DNA of 64,000 bases from Thuidium tamariscinum (taxonomy: Eukaryota; Streptophyta; Bryopsida; Hypnales; Thuidiaceae). The notes under the pieces were generated by a model. The model was not told the DNA's origin and did not search any database. It saw only the letters and a list, made by a program, of their open reading frames with translations. Location: contig OX344750.2 of the NCBI GenBank assembly GCA_947034885.2, positions 5,456,001 through 5,520,000 on the forward strand. The letters run 5' to 3'. The position numbers and the translations under genes were made by a program. This document shows positions 2,099 through 19,990 of this stretch, one piece after another. Position 1 is the first letter of the stretch. Every line of letters starts with the position of its first letter.

Positions 2099-5000
2099 TC
2101 ATCTGACGAGGGCACAGCGGATTGAAGCATTGAGCGTAAAATCATCAGTGATAGATTCACTACAAACCTGGGCATCGAGTTTGTCAGCAAGGTCTAACAA
2201 AATGTCAGACACCCCATGTACCGGATCGTGAAACAGCTTATCCGGTCTTACATTCTCTGCATTGCACTTTGCAGTAAGCTTAGCCAGACGAGACTTCAGT
2301 ACTCTGATTTGATCCTGATGTGTGCACAGAGCCTCAATTTCATCCTCAATTTGCTGTTTCTTCGCCACTTTCTCAAGTTTGTGGCTCAGCTCTTGCAGCT
2401 GTGCACATGAAAACCACATCATAATTATACTTGGTAATCTTAAAAATATGCGAAATAGTTTTTATCACTTATTTGCATGACGGATGAGTATAATTGCTAT
2501 CTACTAGAAGTTATACTAGTAATCTTAGCTTAAAAGTATTGATGCTGGCCTAATTTGGTGTTCAACGTAGAAAAACATGTTCGTAGATCGCTCGCTAACA
2601 CTAATTGTCTTTGCAACTTGTTCAAAGCTCATTCTATTTTCCTGCAAAGATTGACCACTTACTTATCCAATTCAATTTGAAATGCAAGAGTTCCACGAGA
2701 AGATTTTTCCACTTTCTTTACGGGTACAAATGCTTATGGCATGCGACTCTACTAATCGCTAAGCCGATCGTCGAGATATCGGCAGCGTGGAGTTATAATA
2801 GCAGAAGTTTCAAAACCCAAGATTAGGTGCGGTCAAAATGAAAACCAACAAAGAAATATTTCTGAGATATCATTGGCGGGAATTCCTATGGTCAGAGATC
2901 CTCCCAGCACGATTTGGTACAGATGATGTTAAGCTCACGATACTCATACTCAAAAACTTCGAAATACTAACCCGTTCTGCTGAAGTGCCATCAGGTGAAA
3001 AGGAGAGGACCTGCGAAAGGTTTCCCCAATCGTTCTCCTCTGGGCCACAGTGAGGTAGTTTGAGTTACCTGTGCACATTCCAGACATGTTGCATTTCTTC
3101 AGGATGTCTTAAGATTTCTCTGTACACAAGAAGCACCCGGAACATAGACGCCACATCGAATGTCCACAAGCTGGAAAAAAAATCTAAACGAACTTCAAGC
3201 GGTAAAAGTACTAATAAGAACAACACGTGTTGACGGCATAAAATGTTTCAAGTTAAGAATAACAGAAGTCTAGTTTCTCTAAATTCAAATCTCGAAAATA
3301 CCAGAAACAAGCATCACTAACCTGAAATTCTGTCAAAACTCGACTAGTCTCGAACTTCCTCTGTGACACCTGCAATGAAAATACGGGTTCAGGACAAGAG
3401 ACCGCTGTAAGCCAACATAAATTTCACACAACCCCACACAAAAATTAGGAAGCGTTCTAATGTCCTGTTCCATCAAGGGTGGTAGGGAAGTTGTTTGGGT
3501 TACAAAAAAAATAAAAAAAATATGCGCATTGAGAAAGAAGCTCAAACTCACCGCTTTGGATCTGCTAGCAAGTACATCTGATAGCTGATGCACTTCCTGC
3601 TGCAGGGACCATACTAAACTCAGACTCACGCTTTCGTCGTTGTCATAATCTGCTCCATCGTAATTCGGGCTTCCATCGCGGGTACTCTTGCTTGCACATC
3701 CATGAGCGGTAACCCTTGATCCTGGTTTGGAGACACTGCCATCGCTGTCTAATCGGCTAGGGCTGTGTCTGAATAGAGTATTGTATGATCGCATCAAATT
3801 GCTGAAATCAATTTGCAATAAAAACGGTTAAAACTCGGCGCACACAATCTCATTGGAGAGATATCTTCATTCCTGTTCAGTTGGAGACTGCTATTCTACA
3901 AAAAATTTGACAACATCCAACTACAAAACAAGGATCAAACGTTTGTCCTCTTTGTGCAGCCCAAGTTCCCTCCAAATACATCAAGAAACAGCACTTCTTC
4001 CAGAATTGGAAGCAAAACATCATCATGATATGACATGCTAGAACGGAGAATTACATACCCAGCACAGCGGTTGTCGCCGTCTACAATATTTGCAGGCGTT
4101 GAGTCATAGTCATCAGGAGTATTGCAGCTGATAGGTTCGTAGCAGCCATCACTCCAGGCACCCCTGGAGTTTTCACTGAGAGCGTCTGAGAGCCCGCTGC
4201 CTTTGCTGCTTCTTGCCCAGTCACTGTCACTGTCTCTGGTCTAAGAGTTGGAAGGAAAGGATAATATCAATAGGAGGAAACGAGCACTGGCAACAGTATC
4301 TTGAAAGGATTCTCAAGTGAGTAGGCGGAAGCGGAGTCTCGGGTTGCAAACATCAAAGATTGTTTAGTCAGACAACAGCATATCAAGATAGAGCAAGCAA
4401 CCTGACATACCTCAAGATCGTCCTGGAGGTTCGCAAGAGCGGTGGAGAGGTTCGTGCACTCTGCTTCCTTAGCTTCCAGTAAATGACTCTTTTCATTAAG
4501 CAGTCTCTTTAATTGTACCCTCTCAGCCTCCAATGCCGAAGCATTCCTGAAAAGCAATTCACATTCTCGCGAGAAAGTTTGAACCTGGGACTCCATTTGC
4601 TGCTTCTCACGTTGCAGGCGCTTCACCTTTTCACCTAACATCCTAGCTTCAAGCATTACAGCTTTCAAATCCTGCACGCAGTTGCAAAGACAATATGCTT
4701 AAACACTGAAAGGAAATTATGACAAGGAATAAGGAGTTGAATCCCTGACATTGGAAAACGGGTATCATCAAACGCAATACAACTGGGTTGTATTTATATG
4801 CTGTAGGACAGGTGAGCATAACTTCGGCCATATTGCAACTAGTATGTTCACCGCACATGCAGATTCTTACAGTTCATATATACAAAGTATTTGACAATAG
4901 TCCGCTCACAAATTCGACGCCTCGCCTATCTAATAAGACATCAGATATCACAGAACTAACACAACATGAAGTAGGCTAATCCTATCTAACAAGAAAACCC

Positions 5001-10509: not shown

Positions 10510-11082
10510 ACCTACCATACCGTTGGAGAGATCGCTACATACGACTGGAGGGGATGCTTTCACATCCGTAAGGAAACTGAATGTCACTTCGGGGTTTAGA
10601 TCTCCGCTCTGCCAATTTTAGCAACGACAGTGTGAGGTCAAGCATCGTTTTGAGTGGATTTAGAATTGCATAAGGATTAATTTAACGCTATTTCAGATCT
10701 GAGAGAACTTAGTTACTCGGTATCTATTTGCATTTGCAATTTGGTACGGATCAAGGGCCAGATTACAGTGTTCATTGGCTTCATCTTCTCGACTCGTAAG
10801 GTTGATTTTCATGGCCAAACTAAGCATGACAGCCCTGTCTTGCACAACTGAATTGGGACTTTCAAGAATACAAACCAAAAGAAAGTGTAAATGTAGAAAC
10901 GACATTAAAACAAACTTGCGAACTTAATGACTTCAGACGCATCCGAATGTATACAGTTAGTTCGCGACAGAGAACACTGCTACGGCGCAGACTTAACCTT
11001 CCTTAAGTTACTTACAATAAATTTGCTGCTTTCTCTAGGGTGCATTACACAAAGCAAACAGTACATTCGGTTTAGGTTTCAG
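10510..11082. other. Spacer of mixed composition
   Basis: Less AT-rich than the sequence to the left. Short frames on both strands lack recognisable domains. It may be downstream flank of the snoRNA-like array. Confidence 0.35.
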
Positions 11083-11161
11083 GGTTGTGCTCAGAATCAA
11101 CGCATCTCTGAGCATCGGGCACTGTGAGTGTATCAGAAAATAGCATAAACATTACACAACC
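11083..11161 (-). ncRNA. C/D-box snoRNA-like unit, degenerate copy 1
   Basis: On the minus strand the ends GGTTGTG and CACAACC pair as a 7-bp terminal stem. A D box CTGA (11091-11094) and an internal CTGA (11133-11136) are present. The C box is eroded to GTAATGT instead of RTGATGA. It is probably a non-functional paralogue of the unit at 11455-11545. Confidence 0.35.
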
Positions 11162-11454
11162 TTACACCTCCGAAAACTGTTTCCAAAATCATAAGGTCGC
11201 TTTTCATCAGAAATCAGTACAGGTGAGTGAGTGGGATTGTTTATTGCAAGCGCATAATCTATACGAAGCAGGAAAAGAGTCGCACAGGGGCAAATATGCC
11301 TCCAGTTGGAGAGGACATAGACGAAAACCAAGTAGCTAGACACTTAAAAAACAATCTGGTCAGACTGAGCGACATGTACAGATACGTGGAACAAGCCAAA
11401 GCTTTTCACCGGACAACAACCCTACGACAATCCCTAAAAACAAACTGCTAAGTA

Positions 11455-11545
11455 GTGCTCAGAATCAACGCATCTCCGTTCAACGAGCACTGTGAGTGCT
11501 CTCATACAAGAGGTGTCAGAAAAACATGCATAATCATCATAGCAC
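11455..11545 (-). ncRNA. Putative C/D-box snoRNA, copy 2
   Basis: A 91-nt unit on the minus strand. The terminal stem GTGC/GCAC encloses the C box ATGATGA (11534-11540) and the D box CTGA (11459-11462). A D' box CTGA lies 14 nt after the C box, with a C'-like TGAGAG after it. The candidate guide before the D box reads GATGCGTTGATT. The architecture is that of methylation-guide snoRNAs. I could not assign a target, and only sequence motifs support it. Confidence 0.55.
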
Positions 11546-11665
11546 AACCGATCTCCTAGAACAGCGGCAATCTGAAAAACCAAACACATTCTCGAACAAA
11601 CAGAGCACGGCGACTCATGCAGACAGCGGAAGGCGAAACACTAACCTGAACGGGCGCTACGAGGC

Positions 11666-11677
11666 ATAAATATAGGT
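11666..11677 (-). promoter_or_regulatory. TATA-like element upstream of copy 2
   Basis: Minus-strand CCTATATTTATG inside a block (TCGG(C/T)TCC..GAAACCTATATTT) conserved with 12312-12323. It lies about 120 nt before the start of copy 2. No telo-box is seen above it. Confidence 0.35.
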
Positions 11678-11727
11678 TTCAAGGAGCCGAAGGACGATAA
11701 GAAGACAGTTAGATTCTACATTACGGC

Positions 11728-11783
11728 CACTGTGAATGCCCTCATATAAGGGGTGTCGGAAAACAATATAATCATCACAACAC
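11728..11783 (-). ncRNA. C/D-box snoRNA-like unit, degenerate copy 3
   Basis: The C box GTGATGA (11772-11778) is intact. The D' box has changed to CCGA, and the expected D box, further toward 11712, to CTAA. It is the counterpart of copy 1 in the second repeat unit and is probably a pseudo-snoRNA. Confidence 0.35.
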
Positions 11784-12097
11784 AACCTTAAGCCTATCGG
11801 CTTAAAAACATCAGAGAAATGTTTCCAAAATCCTAAGGCCCGCTTACATCAGAAATCAGTGCAGGTGAGTGAGTTGGAATACATATTCCAAGTGGAGTAT
11901 ACTATACGAAGCATGATAAGAATCGCACAGGGGCAAATAAGACTCCGCTTGGAAGGTAACCCACAACCGAAGACCAAATTAGATGAAGTATTAACAAACA
12001 ATCTGGTCCGACTGAGTAACATGGGCAGATATGTGGAAGAAGCCAAAGTTTTCACCAGACGAAAACCCTAAAACTACCCCTAAACTTACTGTAAGTA

Positions 12098-12188
12098 GTG
12101 CTCAGAATCTACGCTTCTCCGTTCAACGAGCACTGTGAATGCTCTCATACAAGAGGTGTCAGAAAAACAAGCATAATCATCACAGCAC
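12098..12188 (-). ncRNA. Putative C/D-box snoRNA, copy 4
   Basis: A 91-nt unit on the minus strand. The GTGC/GCAC terminal stem encloses C box GTGATGA (12177-12183), D' box CTGA (12159-12162), a C'-like TATGAGA and D box CTGA (12102-12105). The segment before D is GGAGAAGCGTAGATT and that before D' is TTATGCTTGTTTTT. It is the best-preserved unit, with a TATA-like element and telo-box upstream as in independently transcribed plant snoRNA clusters. Target not identified. Confidence 0.58.
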
Positions 12189-12311
12189 GACCGATCTCCG
12201 AGGATATCGACAATCTGAAAAAACATAAAAATTCTCTAACAACATAAAGAACGGTGACAAGTGCATCCAGCGGAAGGAGGAGACACCATACTCCTGCGCT
12301 GCGCTGTGGGG

Positions 12312-12323
12312 GCGAAAATATAG
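12312..12323 (-). promoter_or_regulatory. TATA-like element of the snoRNA-like array
   Basis: Minus-strand CCTATATTTTCG. Transcription starting 25-35 nt downstream would begin roughly 100 nt before copy 4. Confidence 0.4.
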
Positions 12324-12412
12324 GTTTCGGGGAACCGAGGGACGACAAGAGTACCGTTGGATCCTCGAATCCAACGGCTGCAAATTCTGAGATTGCGATG
12401 GCGATAATTTCG

Positions 12413-12421
12413 TTAGGGTTT
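12413..12421 (-). promoter_or_regulatory. Telo-box upstream of the snoRNA-like array
   Basis: AAACCCTAA on the minus strand, about 90 bp upstream of the TATA-like element. Telo-boxes are common in promoters of plant ribosomal-protein and snoRNA genes, which fits the array below it. Confidence 0.45.
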
Positions 12422-13596
12422 CATTCGTGGTGTTCTGAAACTCTATCACTAGACCTAGAGTAGGCTGACATTCCTCTGCAAAATTCAGTTTCAGCTTGTA
12501 GGACTATCTTGGCATAGAAATCCTTTGAAAATTAATTTCGCCCACCCTGAACAAAGAGTGTGTTGGGGTAGTTCAATTAAGTTGGGCCATGTTTTGGGGA
12601 CTAGAAGTAAGTCATTGCAAAACACTTTGTGTATAAATTCATATAAAATAAGTTTTAAAAATATAAATGATATTTTAATATTAAAAAAAATAGAAATAAT
12701 TCAAGAAATACAATTTCAAAGCTTATTCATACGAAGGTAAGGTTACATTGTTCAGCAGTCTTTCACTCAAAGCGGCAAAACTCATCAATAATGCGGTCCC
12801 AACAAGGAGAGAACAATAATTGAGGTGACTGCAGTACGTAACTGCAATTCGTCGGTGCATCTAATACTAAACTCGAACTCACCTACTCATTACGTAACTG
12901 CGAGTCACTGTACAAAGCGTAATCCTTTGCAAAACGTTTCTTAGGTCTCTTTTTTCATTTTCTTCTTCCTAGCTGGAATACCTTGTCTGGGAACATATCA
13001 CATAACATTCTTTGCCAGCCAGCAGCCTCGGAAGAATGAGCCTTCAAAAGCATGAGGTGGCGCCAGTAGGGGTAGTCACGGCTCCTTCGAGCACCCAGAT
13101 TTCACAGAAGAATGAGGGAAACCAGGGTCCAATAAGGAGTCGATTAGCATGAATGAAGGAGCTGTGACACCACTTTTGAGTGCAGTGTGTAGAATCGTGC
13201 AAGATCGGCAACTCCGAAGGCACGATCGGCAGCTTCCGGTAACAACTTCCGGTAACAACTTCGCTCGATAACGGTTCTTCACACCGCTTATCCACCTCCG
13301 GAATAGAATAAGCAACACGGCAAAGTCTTTGCCATCGAAGAATATTCCGTCGCATGCCGTCTCACAAGAGACAACCCTAAGCTGCCACGACGAAAAACGG
13401 TGGCGAAGTTCGTCCCGGAGGAAGAGCCGTGACTACCCTTACAGTACCGTGCTATGAAAAGCAAGGATGATTCTTCCTTCGAGCCAACACTCTTGGTGCT
13501 TCAACAGTGCTTGGCAGTGCCAGGACCCTTCTTGGGTGCTTCACTGGTATAGAATGTTATGCAAAGATGAGTACACTCTAAAATGCAACGCAAAAA
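12422..13596. other. Spacer between snoRNA-like array and CDKC 3' end
   Basis: Contains the CDKC 3' flank. From 13040 the sequence is GC-richer and includes a doubled CTTCCGGTAACAA near 13234-13263. A minus-strand frame at 13355-13044 (103 codons) has no recognisable motif and is not called. Confidence 0.4.
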
Positions 13597-16500
13597 CTAA
13601 CGCTGTTGCTGCCGATAGTCTGGTCGATGTGGCGGAGATGGAGGCTGAAAGCCAGAGTGCGATGCTCGTGCATAAGCTCCATCAATATCTACATACTGTG
13701 CTGTTGTCTGCAATCGAAAACAAAGAGATGAGAATAATGATGAGTTGACAACTGGCCCCAGACCGGTCAGCTTTCCCAACAGCGAAAACTATCTACGATA
13801 ATCCGCAAGACTTTAAGGAATTCACTAAAAGTAACTCCCATCAGCAGCTTGCCAATGCAACATCCACATTCAGAGTGCTTGAAAGAATTACCTGCTGCAT
13901 GTAATGCTGAGCACCATAAGCAGGAGGCGGAGGTACACCAGCCATGCCACTGTTCAAGACCCCACAGATAAATACATCAGCAAAGCACAAGTATAAATAT
14001 ATTCCAGTCATGAACCACAGGAACTTCATGTACACCGACAGAGAATCACAAAAGACCAAAAGACCCTCATCCCCTAGAATGTTGAAGTTCTACAGGTAAA
14101 TTAACATGCATTATATTCACAATCCTCATGTGGAACTAATGTTGAAGCTAATGTTAGTGTCACTAACAGTAACTTGATTCTACTTTGGTATTAATATAGA
14201 TATCAACATAGTTATCAATAGATCAGCATTATCCTGACATAAATTTTAAAATATTTTAGTATTCGTCTGATATCCAATTAGATTAACATTCATTTATCGT
14301 TCGTAACTGTGTGAATATAATACAGGGACCTTTCGAGACGAACTTACCCAAATTGCTGACCACGACCACCAACTGGAGGACCTCTCCCACCACCATAAGG
14401 ACCAGCAGGGTACGCCCCTCCAGCAGGGCCCCCATAGGCACCACCCCTCCCACCTTGATGCCCCATGTTGGGAGCTGTGTATGCACCCTGCTGCTGCGCA
14501 GGCCCTCCATAGGCTCCACCTGGTACACCACGATTAGGCCCTCCGTACCCGCCATTTTGACTTGGCCCTCCATGAGGGGGCCGTCCCCCTCCAGGAGCTC
14601 GGCCTTGATGGTTACCTCCTTGACCCCTGTGGTCAGATAAACAATTGGTCAGAATCGAGATAGTAGAGATCCAGGCTGAAGGCTCGAGCTTATTAGAAGA
14701 CAGGATGAGCGAGAGGTCTATTTAGACTTGCGTTCCTTCAACTCAAGAAGAATTGGATGGAAGTCAAAAGTTTTGATGATCAGGATGCAATACCTGTTAT
14801 TGTAGTTATTATGTTGCTGATTGGACAGGCCATTTGCATGCAATGGAGGCCCCAAGTTGTGACCAGGCTGATGAGGACCAGGTCGCAGAGGTTGTTGCTG
14901 AATCGGAGGCAAGCGTGTGTGAGGAGCTGGGTGATGGATGACCTTCATGCGTTTTGCCTGCTCCTCTTGTTGTTGCCGCTGTTGCTGCCTTTTCTTCTTG
15001 GTTTGATACTCGTGAGAAGCTTCGTACTTCGGCAAACTATGATCATAAAGAATGGTTCAATCAATAAACATAACATCCAGAAAGTTCAAAAATCAAATCA
15101 GACATTAACCATCGAGAAACCCGATGTCAGAATTAGGTGTTAGCAAAATGACGCATGCTGGCCGAAACAAATATCAATCAAGAGATCCAGGTAGCCCAGT
15201 CCGACTTGGCAATGCTGACTACAATTAACTCCATTTAACTCCATTAGTGCTAAACATTGCATTACAAACTTCCAAATACGACCAAACTTGACTACTAAAA
15301 CCTTTTCATTGGAGAGACTTTCTGGCATAGCTCGTAGCAAAACAGATCTGCCGACACCTAGTTTATATGACAACACAAAATCATCATACATGCAAGTACC
15401 TATAATTACACTCACCTGCTTGGTTGACACGGCATAGGTTCAGTCCAGAAATACTCGGCATCCAATGCATCTTTAGCAGAAATCCGCTGCACAATCAAAG
15501 TCACGAGCCAAATCAAACGTGAGCTCACAAGAACAAACAAAGCCAAGAGTCACAACAAGTGATCCTCATAATAACTTGAATGTGCATTGGGACCCTCATG
15601 ACGGCTCAAATCAGTTCAAGATGGCCTTTACGAGGACAGAATGCAAAATAAAAATTGTCAACACAAAGGATGATTGCAATATGATAGCCGATATGACGCA
15701 AGTATCAAAAGTGTCTCAAGTCGAGTCACATGATTATACGTACATGTTCAGGATCCAGTGTCAACATGCGCTCTAGGAGGTCAAGGGCATGTCGATCAAA
15801 ACTGTATCGCAGATGAAGAAAAAGGTCAGCAGAAGGCCAGAGCTATTCCACAAAACAGACCGACTTCACATGACAAAGCGACCAAGAATATACTAAGTTC
15901 AGAAAAAGGAAATTTCGCTGCTGTTAAAGGATGTAGTTTCTACAAGTCAGTGCAGTGAAGGGAGGGCGGAAGCGGTACTCACTGTTTGAACACATCCTTC
16001 ACACGACGCTTCACTGGCCTCTCAGGCTTGAATTGATTGTAGTAAGGCAACTGACTCACTCGCGGCCAATTGGTCTCATCCGGAGATCCGCATAGTTCAC
16101 AGATCTTGTGAAATTGCTCACTCTGCAGGAAAAACACAGAGAAGAAACCAAGCCTAATAATCAAGAAGCATCCAAAAAACTGGAGAAACGAATTTCAGTC
16201 TATTATCCGCACGATGAAACAAATAAGCAGATGAAAGGATGAGTCTCCTGGAAGGAGGTCATCACAACGGGCTTCTACCAATACTAATCAAGCATAACTT
16301 GTAGATAAATTGATAAAGTCTCACAAATACAGAAAAAGAAGAGCGTTATACGTTATACAGCTCACGTTATATGGCCAACTAAAGCATCACTTAACTGGGG
16401 GAATTAAGATCTAGTCAGACGAACAATTAAATGCTGCCAATCCATATAGCACAACAAAATTACCTTACCAATTCTTACTGAGTGTGATCCCTACTAAGCA

Positions 16501-18210
16501 CGTTTACCATAATATAGTATTCAAAGATGATAATATAAAGCCCCGATATTTCAAGTTGTAGTAACCCGTAGGTCCAAATTATAACATGGATCCAATTAGG
16601 CATATCGAAGTTCTGCGTAATTGAAGCAAAACAACGAGAAGGCTCCTTATCCACACCTCGTTCCTTCCGGGAAGGATGGGCTTTCCGTTAAGAAGCTCAG
16701 CAAAAATGCATCCCACTGACCACATGTCCACGGCTGGAGTGTACTTTGTGGAGCCCATCAACAGCTCGGGGGGCCTGAAACGGGTAGAAGTACTAGAAAG
16801 TCAAGTGACTTACTAGTAGCAGTCCACTGCACGTGGTAAGAGCAACCATTGCTATGCTCCGTCAAGAAACAAAATCTCTGCACTCAAGATATCCATAACC
16901 TGGGGTGATTCACAACATCACTTGCAGGAATAGGACACCAAAGCCCTACCTGTACCAAAGAGTGATCACCCGATTCGTCAGTGGTTGACCATTTTGGTCG
17001 TTGGAGAAAGACCTCGCAAGTCCGAAATCGGCAAGCTTCAAAATGCCATTGTTGTCGATAAGAAGATTTGAACCTGAACAAGTCACCCAAGAAGTTTCTC
17101 AGGTCTCAGGTTACAGTAGTTGATTCCAGCCAGTAGTCATTTAATATGAACAGATCACTCCAAATAAGCTGAGCACTGGTTCAAATGGAAAGGCAAACCG
17201 AAATGGAACCATACCCTTTATATCCCTGTGCAGGACTTGATTAACATGGCAGTAATGTAGGCCCGTGAGAAGTTGCTTCATGTAACACTGCATTACAGAG
17301 GAACCGCGTTAGAGTTGAGTAGTACAAAAATGTGAAGGACGAAGAATAAAGCAAATGCCAAGATTTAAATTTCTATTCACACTTTTCGAATTGACACCAA
17401 TACCTTGATTTGAGCAATAGAGAAGCGCATGCCAGGTCGGTCCGAAAGGCCTGTCAAATCATGGTCCATATACTCGAACACCATGTAAATCGAACCTTTG
17501 AACTTATTCGCATCACCGGGCTTAATGTTGTCCTCTTTTTCGGGTCCTGTTCACATTGAAAACAATTTCTTCAGGAAGAGCACATTTCATAAGCTGAACT
17601 CACCGGAAATAACCTCACAAAACGAAATCACTGTAATGGGTTATAATACATCGTTCACGTGCAAAGCAGGTAATCAATACGATGCACTCAGTATAGAGGA
17701 TGATTACTATCAACATCTATATCCAGACAAAAGATGATTTCAAGGCTGTACCTTTGGAGGTTACAATTTCCTTCAACTTGATGACGTTGGCATGCTGCAA
17801 CTTCTTCAGAATCTTGATCTCACGAATAGCTGTAATGGGAAACTGCGTTTGAACACAAAAATAACTCCGTAAGCAATCCTTCCAGCCCTTGATCAGAGCC
17901 ACTGAATGCTAGGGTCTCTCAAGCAAATAAAAAAGTTCAATATCTCAAGAGCAAAGGAATCTAGAATACACTCTGAACTTGCTCCTTGCACAGCCTACGT
18001 GAATAAACTCCAACATACCCCTTCTTTTTCATTGTCCATGCGAACTTTCTTCAGGGCCACAACTTCGCCTGTTGCTATCTCCCGTGCCATGTAAACTTGC
18101 CCATAAGTCCCCTCTCCAATCTGCTCAATCTTCTCATAGACGTCAACGCTCCGGGACCCCCAAGTCGGAGTCTCGTCTAAGTTCAGCTGCCCAGGCACCG
18201 CTACCGCCAT
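13597..18210 (-). CDS. CDKC: Cyclin-dependent kinase C (PITAIRE kinase)
   Basis: Thirteen exons give 1,701 bp in perfect phase (566 aa): 18210-18019, 17842-17752, 17546-17404, 17287-17215, 17073-16950, 16774-16657, 16122-15983, 15801-15744, 15486-15416, 15036-14794, 14626-14348, 13949-13892, 13707-13597. The kinase domain has the Gly loop GEGTYGQVY (32-40), Lys54, the cyclin-binding PITAIRE helix (66-72) that defines CDKC, the catalytic HRDIKGSNLL (Asp164), DFG (182-184), T-loop Thr199 in [14 protein letters not shown], and [10 protein letters not shown]. After the kinase domain come [11 protein letters not shown] and a long Gly/Pro/Gln tail ([10 protein letters not shown] type), as in plant CDKCs. 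By family knowledge CDKC with cyclin T acts as P-TEFb in the nucleus, phosphorylating the RNA polymerase II C-terminal domain and supporting elongation. The start is the first ATG before [17 protein letters not shown]. The gene appears intact. Confidence 0.97.
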
Positions 18211-19990
18211 TCTTCGACTCACGAGAAAGAGTCACGGTCCTTAGGTGCGCACTTCCGACACCCTCAGCTACAGTCTAAATCCTGAGAAATGTAATTCAAC
18301 CGTTAAGTACAAGTGAGCCAACCTCGTGCACAAGTCGAAGAACTGAAAACCCTAATTTCATGCAACTGAAAACCCTAATTTTCAGAACAGAGTGATAGAA
18401 ACAAATATCAGGACCTGCAAATCCCAATCAAAGCTCTCCAAAAAACTTCTAGTAAAAGGGAATGACCAAATCACAAGAGTTGAATGATAGGATGCAACCG
18501 TAGAAAAGAAAAAAGAAAAATCAAAACCTATACCTGGAATCCTAACATGAGATTTCAAAATTCTGTACACAGACCTCTTCATCGACAACCGATTCCAACA
18601 GCCCACCCCATAAAACTGAGTAATACTTTGGAACGGATTTCGCGACTTGTAATGATAAATTCAATGGAGCGTACTCAGAAAAGCAAATCAGAAACTAAAA
18701 CACATAAAACTTCAAAACCTTGTTGAAAACCCTAAAACTGCGATAAAAAAACCCTGCATAAACAATAATTACCCTTCATGACTACATCCTCAAACACCAC
18801 AACAAACCCTTCAAAAATCTGAGATAATTAATTGATTGCACATCCAAACTTTCAACAAAAGAAAACCCCAAAATTAACATATCCCTATCACGAGCCTACA
18901 AACCCCAAACTTGAACTCCATGCTCAAAACTCTTACTCTCCTCCCAAACCCGATTTCAAACTAAACACCGAATACTCAAAAACTTCACGACCATTGGAAA
19001 TAGGATCAATGAAGAAATAGAAGTACCGTAAGCAGAGAAGAAAACCATGTAACTCTGTGAAACTTCGAAACCCTCACTCTGTAAATGAAAACCCTAACGA
19101 CACTCGCACTGCACAAAGCAAATACCCTATTTAGACCCAATCTACTATATCCTCAAACGTCACCCTAAACCCTACAAAAATATCTGAAGTCCTTCATTAC
19201 ATATCCATACTTTCAGCTAACGTAACCCGAATATTTTCCAGAACCGAATCTCAAAGGCAAAGGAACAAACCAGAGAATTTTAAGTGCCGCGCGTGAGAGA
19301 CAGCTGAGGCGAGAGAGGGGAAGAAGAGGGGTGACAAGGGGCAGCCTCGGGCTCTTGGTGAAGCTCATCGACATATCTGCTCTCCGATTCGGATGACACA
19401 ACCCCACCCATCGCTTCAAATTGGCAGCCGTCTAATCAAGAAAGTAGCAGGCAGCTTAATCGATCGACATTGGAGCGAGAAATTGGAGCAAGATTCACTA
19501 CTAGGGTATCCCTAATATCTGGAAATCTGAAGCGCGACTTCGAATGGTACTACCACTACTAGCCATCTGCACCTACACCATGCTTTGCGCAGTCACTGTA
19601 GAGTGCAAAATTCGCAACGGTCCTCAAAATAGAGAAGCCCTAATCACTGGACTGAATTCTAATCTGCGACATTGCGCCTTGTGAAATTCAGGAACTGATG
19701 GACAAAATCCCGGAGTATGAAAGATCTTCTAAGTGAGCACACAATCACAGAAACAACAGAAGCCGCACTTCACCAAACAAACACGAAGTCTCCAGCTTCC
19801 AGGTGCAGGGTGGGGGAGACGAGCAGCATCGTCGAGGTAGGAGGACTGAATCTCATCCACGAATATCATCCAAGACGATGAATTGAGGGTTTAGGGTCTG
19901 TGAGTCCTGCATTTTGAACTCAATCCAAAATCATTTTGATCTGCTGCGTCCCTCATTTTTGGGTTGCTCCCCTTCTTTAATTTATTATGT
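18211..19990 (-). promoter_or_regulatory. CDKC 5' leader and promoter region
   Basis: A CTGTAG acceptor-like site at 18268-18273 (minus strand) suggests a spliced 5' leader. AAACCCTAA motifs in plus orientation recur at about 18351, 18370 and 19089, and a purine-rich run lies at 19300-19335. Open frames here lack domains. The exact transcription start cannot be fixed. Confidence 0.4.

Follow-up and report, generated by a model that had tools for sequence, protein, structure and literature searches.

The window analysed here is a 64-kb stretch of the 363-Mb genome of Thuidium tamariscinum (C2:5456001-5520000). It carries on its minus strand an array of two intact and two decayed snoRNA units and a CDKC-like protein kinase gene. 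Both intact units, each of 91 nt, are box C/D snoRNAs of family snoR1 (RF00345). They were the only Rfam matches above cut-off in the 64 kb: 12099-12187 scored 59.4 bits (E = 3.9e-10) and 11456-11544 scored 54.9 bits (E = 6e-9) in a search of the window, against a curated covariance-model cut-off of 49 bits. These E values place the array well above chance, and the scores bear out the C/D identity proposed in an earlier sequence-only reading, whose coordinates, strand and array layout for the 91-nt units also proved correct on rechecking the sequence. Copy 1, in the outer repeat (12098..12188), has a C box at 12177-12183, a guide at 12152-12168, a candidate D′ box (AUGA) at 12145-12148 and a CTGA D box at 12102-12105. 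Copy 2, in the inner repeat (11455..11545), has the corresponding elements at 11534-11540, 11509-11525, 11502-11505 and 11459-11462; the box positions of both copies were derived by hand from sequence indices. Each copy has the RTGATGA C box towards its 5′ end and the CTGA D box towards its 3′ end, and its ends can form a short GTGC/GCAC stem. The end stem, box C and box D of the original layout stand; the internal CTGA is part of the guide, not D′. A clear C′ box was not seen in the intact units, and box C′ is likewise unassigned in Arabidopsis SnoR1 in excerpts of PMC8053127.

The tandem duplication reported earlier is real. The outer repeat unit (TATA, snoR1 and spacer; 11808..12365, minus strand) aligns with the inner one (11166..11717, minus strand) at 78.5% over 563 columns, with the spacing between gapless blocks mostly 642-648. 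Within these repeats the snoRNA is conserved in excess of its surroundings: 86 of 91 positions are identical, compared with 343 of 457 outside (plus 14 gap columns), giving a Fisher p of 5.2e-6 when gaps are ignored and 7.3e-7 when they are treated as changes. The best-conserved 91-column stretch in a sliding comparison (step 10), 12185-12095, is the snoRNA itself, and a protein-coding origin of the conservation was set aside as unlikely. Taking 40 aa as the minimum, 18 short ORFs overlap 10900-12500, the longest being 89 aa.

Each repeat is accompanied by a decayed minus-strand unit, and the two have the losses first ascribed to them. The unit beside the outer repeat (11723..11790) has kept box C, carries two changes in the guide and has no CTGA; its portion at 11731-11782 scores 26.3 bits for RF00345, under the cut-off. 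The unit beside the inner repeat (11087..11165) retains the D side and D box and has lost RTGATGA and the 3′ part of the guide. It shares a 47-nt match of 81-87% with the intact units and gave no Rfam match up to E = 5.

Promoter-like elements were also found where they had been placed. The TATA-like block CCTATATTT occurs on the minus strand of both repeats, at 12316..12324 (outer) and 11668..11676 (inner), and is conserved in a further snoR1 copy at C2:9.63 Mb. A telo-box, AAACCCTA, lies upstream of the outer TATA (12414..12421, minus strand), and another, which the earlier reading had not listed, is in the opposite orientation and sits between copy 1 and the inner repeat (12063..12070, plus strand). 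The window holds 10 telo-boxes against 2.88 expected, a number reached in none of 100 shuffles; five of the AAACCCTA type occur at 18347-19174, upstream of the kinase gene. A weak Site II-like TGGGCC lies at 12583..12588 (plus strand), and the motif is not enriched in the window (35 found, 40.75 expected). In excerpts of PMC4660826, the telo-box/Site II type of plant snoRNA promoter is defined by these two elements preceding the TATA; at this locus TATA and telo-box are present, with one Site II match that is not above chance. Judging from the TATA and telo-box matches, independent transcription of the units is plausible. The Pol III-type upstream element RTCCCACATCG had no match between 8714 and 17020 and was discarded for this locus; with up to two mismatches it occurs 19 times in the window (13.8 expected).

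The spacers were considered as a source of further RNAs. A two-sequence RNAalifold scan, in which each window was compared with 60 column-shuffled versions, picked out three overlapping windows (z of -3.2 to -4.7) that share an 8-bp hairpin, CUGUGCGA/UCGUAUAG, at 11902-11930 on the minus strand. Its arms are identical in both repeats and its loop differs, with no covariation; it is a possible processing signal. The other matches listed in 10600-12700, each under its cut-off, were SNORD18 (on the two intact units), sR39 and two lncRNA families. No H/ACA family matched in this interval up to E = 5, and on these Rfam matches and the one conserved hairpin no H/ACA or other snoRNA is proposed for the spacers.

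A genome-wide search with RF00345 gave 15 places, three of them above the cut-off: copies 1 and 2 and a copy at C2:9627358-9627446 (55.8 bits), which differs from copy 1 at three positions. This search scored the best 66 of 33648 candidates, and three is therefore a lower bound. The other 12 places, one of them the window's own decayed unit, fell under the cut-off. Because RF00345 also matched in 10 of 14 control genomes, never above the cut-off, weak snoR1 scores alone mean little. The blastn comparison with the window covered eight of the loci L006-L020 (L009, L010, L012, L013 and L015-L018); outside it were L006-L008 and L011, which are the snoR1 units of the window itself and the copy at C2:9.63 Mb, together with L014, L019 and L020. 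Two paralogues were retained, L009 (78% over 91 columns) and L010 (76% over 91 columns), with their adjoining partial units, and the remaining weak matches were dropped. The partial unit at L010 has 18-19 bases identical with the intact snoRNA, and that at L009 has 18 bases at 94%.

These retained loci are themselves paired. At L009 (C1:43888257) and at L010/L015 (C2:43976651-43977052), a damaged snoR1 unit is accompanied by a second, partial one. The two C2 units, 316 bp apart at 43976651 and 43976967 in the RF00345 search, both have C1 counterparts within a stretch that is 90% identical over 1668 columns. The first unit at both loci lacks RTGATGA and has an altered guide; the second has a C box, keeps CCTCTTRTATGAGAGCA immediately after it, and has its guide reduced to the 3′ part. 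Since damaged units are paired here as well as in the window, we infer that the paired arrangement of snoR1 is likely to be ancestral.

The intact copy at C2:9.63 Mb lies in a duplicate of ∼6 kb (C2:9626112-9632874) whose donor, comprising snoR1 copy 1 and the kinase gene, occupies 11864..18302 of the window (end base by eye). Four blocks match the distant copy, all in one inverted orientation: 11864-12430 (97.0%), 12422-12730 (94.8%), 13441-18308 (98.4%) and 12727-13068 (96.2%). Their order at the distant site is 12730...11864 / 18302...13441, 13068...12727. By eye, the internal junction joins 18302 to 11864 with 1 bp shared, and both outer ends abut at 12727-12730 with a 4-bp overlap, TCAT. 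Past the ends of the duplication, in 28.7 kb searched at E up to 1e-6, the only matches were five pieces of 73-77% from scattered window positions. Alignment of the outer to the inner repeat continues past 11864 as far as 11808, so the arrangement in the window should be the older of the two.

The blocks have thus passed from A-B/C-D to B-A/D-C order, with microhomology only at the joints. This reordering has been attributed to circular intermediates in human (PMC7450558 and PMC7188851, both in excerpt), and PMC10462705 deals with circular DNA and structural variants in Arabidopsis mutants. The permuted order suggests a circular DNA intermediate as the simplest route to C2:9.63 Mb. The human segmental duplications resemble the present case in block order and in the microhomology at their joints. 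They differ in size, the 16 in Table 1 of PMC7450558 ranging from 22 kb to 3.9 Mb, whereas the present duplication spans ∼6 kb and carries both a snoRNA and a kinase gene. A route without a circle is unlikely, though it retains some weight: the same final order would result if 11864-18302 had first been duplicated in tandem and a junction-spanning segment had then moved, or if the template had switched during replication, and joint overlaps of 1 bp and 4 bp also suit template switching. However, such a route takes one step more, and no tandem copy survives: apart from the window and C2:9.63 Mb, a search with 13441-18308 returned a single 83-bp match at 76%. The coincidence of both outer ends within 4 bp is, moreover, what a single opened circle predicts, and the circular intermediate remains the preferred account.

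Two apparent insertions distinguish the sites. The window contains a 372-bp stretch (13069-13440) with inverted ends GGTAGTCACGGCTC...GAGCCGTGACTACC that is missing from the C2:9.63 Mb copy, where the joint replacing it has a small overlap; it looks like a short inverted-repeat transposon that would have entered the window after the duplication. The distant site has an insert of ∼697 bp (C2:9626419-9627115; positions 3420-4116 of locus L005) adjoining the telo-box of its snoR1 copy. It is flanked by a 9-bp near-duplication of the target, with one mismatch, and contains short GC-rich repeats.

The kinase gene that travelled with snoR1 copy 1 lies on the minus strand of the window at approximately 14344..18210 and has introns. 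Pfam PF00069 was found in five of the eight pieces searched, three of them above the Pfam cut-off, and the pieces look like CDKC. Between the window and the distant copy, a 4868-column alignment has 61 substitutions and 4 indels. Nine stop-to-stop pieces, which include some flanking non-coding sequence, have no gap, no new stop and a few amino-acid changes; an intact kinase gene at the distant site is likely. The distant copy also retains the TATA (9627222), a telo-box (9627125) and snoR1. Its kinase ATG, at 9627773, is separated from the end of the snoRNA unit at 9627447 by 325 nt. Within this interval lie a telo-box at 9627475 and two upstream ATGs, at 9627523 and 9627661. The five telo-boxes that precede the kinase gene in the window fall beyond the junction and stayed behind. 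The permutation may conceivably have created a joint snoRNA-mRNA unit in which the circle-moved snoR1 promoter, of a ribosome-biogenesis type, drives the kinase copy; we regard this as doubtful. The Site II match at the distant site reads TGGGTC and is parted from the telo-box by the ∼697-bp insert. Efficient translation from a joint RNA is improbable in view of the upstream ATGs and of the cleavage that snoRNA processing should bring.

Conservation of the intact units extends to the guide for a predicted target. The guide GUUUUUCUGACACCUCU is identical in all three intact copies (copies 1 and 2 and C2:9.63 Mb) and pairs with the 25S segment GCUAGAGGUGUCAGAAAAGUUACC in an unbroken run of 17 bp, 15 of them Watson-Crick and two G-U. 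The guides had previously gone unmatched to rRNA. The AUGA of the putative D′ box starts three bases past the paired stretch; the C five bases before it faces the first G of UAGAGG in 25S (D′+5), and the C seven bases before it faces the next G but one (D′+7). The longest guide-target run is 17 in the three intact copies versus 6-12 in five other units: 6 in the decayed unit 11723-11790 and 11 in 11087-11165, 12 in L009 (C1:43.89 Mb), and 10 and 6 in L010 and L010B (C2:43.98 Mb).

A 25S remnant in this genome (L021) and the Rfam eukaryotic LSU consensus supplied the target sequence; GCUAGAGGUGUCAGAAAAGUUACC is present in the remnant and agrees with the consensus. A 21-base core of the target has one match genome-wide, inside the degenerate remnant. 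A search of the assembly with a 39-base pattern gave 0 matches and thus no intact 25S gene. Degenerate 25S fragments occur at L021 (C10:714189-714319 and around), L022 and L023; Rfam LSU matched L021 and L022 and gave no match at L023.

The predicted site fits the one published for Arabidopsis SnoR1. According to excerpts of PMC8053127, Arabidopsis SnoR1 is assigned to 25S G2792, with G2794 suggested too, a prediction made without a suitable mutant for validation. The G at D′+5 fits G2792, a putative equivalence read from the duplex layout and from the two Gs lying one base apart. The same excerpts call SnoR1 the apparent orthologue of yeast snR48 in one passage and of snR45 in another, and report that one snR48 D′ guide serves two Gs one base apart. 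AtsnoR1 and snR48 share a row in a table of PMC3511168; a table of PMC2780460 gives snR48 and human U60, the plant counterpart being absent there, and no passage on snoR1 itself was found in the available parts of PMC7464842 or PMC7762058. Yeast snR48 (RF00471), placed like snoR1 in clan CL00066, would address the same target region, an equivalence taken from these papers.

The sequence-only reading had supposed that the guides, and with them the targets, were diverging between copies. That each unit now guides another site is very improbable. The segment before box D does show a one-base difference between the intact units, and differences are larger in the two decayed ones. Nevertheless, the D′ target is not diverging, as all three intact copies have the same guide, which keeps its 17-pair match to 25S and fits the SnoR1 target. 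The D-side segment departs from the Rfam snoR1 consensus, as expected for a part without a target. It is also very improbable that all units are pseudogenes with a functional snoR1 elsewhere: two of the four array units are clearly decayed and a further copy could have been missed among the candidates left unscored, but the intact copies show excess conservation, C2:9.63 Mb is the sole other above-cut-off copy among the best 66 of 33648 candidates, and at C1:43.89 and C2:43.98 Mb the units are missing either RTGATGA or half of the guide.

The array therefore very probably consists of two intact and two decayed snoR1 copies with the 25S target proposed here. RNA polymerase II would transcribe each intact copy from its TATA/telo-box region, and the precursor would be trimmed to an RNA of ∼91 nt that assembles with the box C/D proteins, among which fibrillarin is the methyltransferase. 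Pairing of the D′ guide with 25S would then direct ribose methylation to the G2792 equivalent at D′+5, and perhaps also to the G2794 equivalent at D′+7. Historically, a pair of snoR1 units would have been duplicated in tandem, after which each pair would have lost one of its members to decay, the two losing complementary parts. Later, copy 1 and the neighbouring kinase gene would have been carried to C2:9.63 Mb, most simply via a DNA circle.

The snoR1 family is already known and its predicted target here is normal. With Arabidopsis SnoR1 the units share the family, C and D boxes, guide and predicted target, 25S G2792; copy number and arrangement differ, as two intact copies stand in tandem and a third is dispersed, the array has at least two decayed units, and further damaged ones occur elsewhere. 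Extra copies are usual in plant snoRNA families, according to excerpts of PMC5122169, and as a conserved guide for rRNA methylation with additional copies the snoRNA is ordinary. The locus is a clear example of snoRNA gene duplication, complementary decay and dispersal, and the circularly permuted dispersal is its more unusual part. The permuted 6-kb copy offers base-level evidence from a plant for a route described in human (PMC7450558 and PMC7188851, in part), and it provides a testable case of a snoRNA promoter set before a protein gene.
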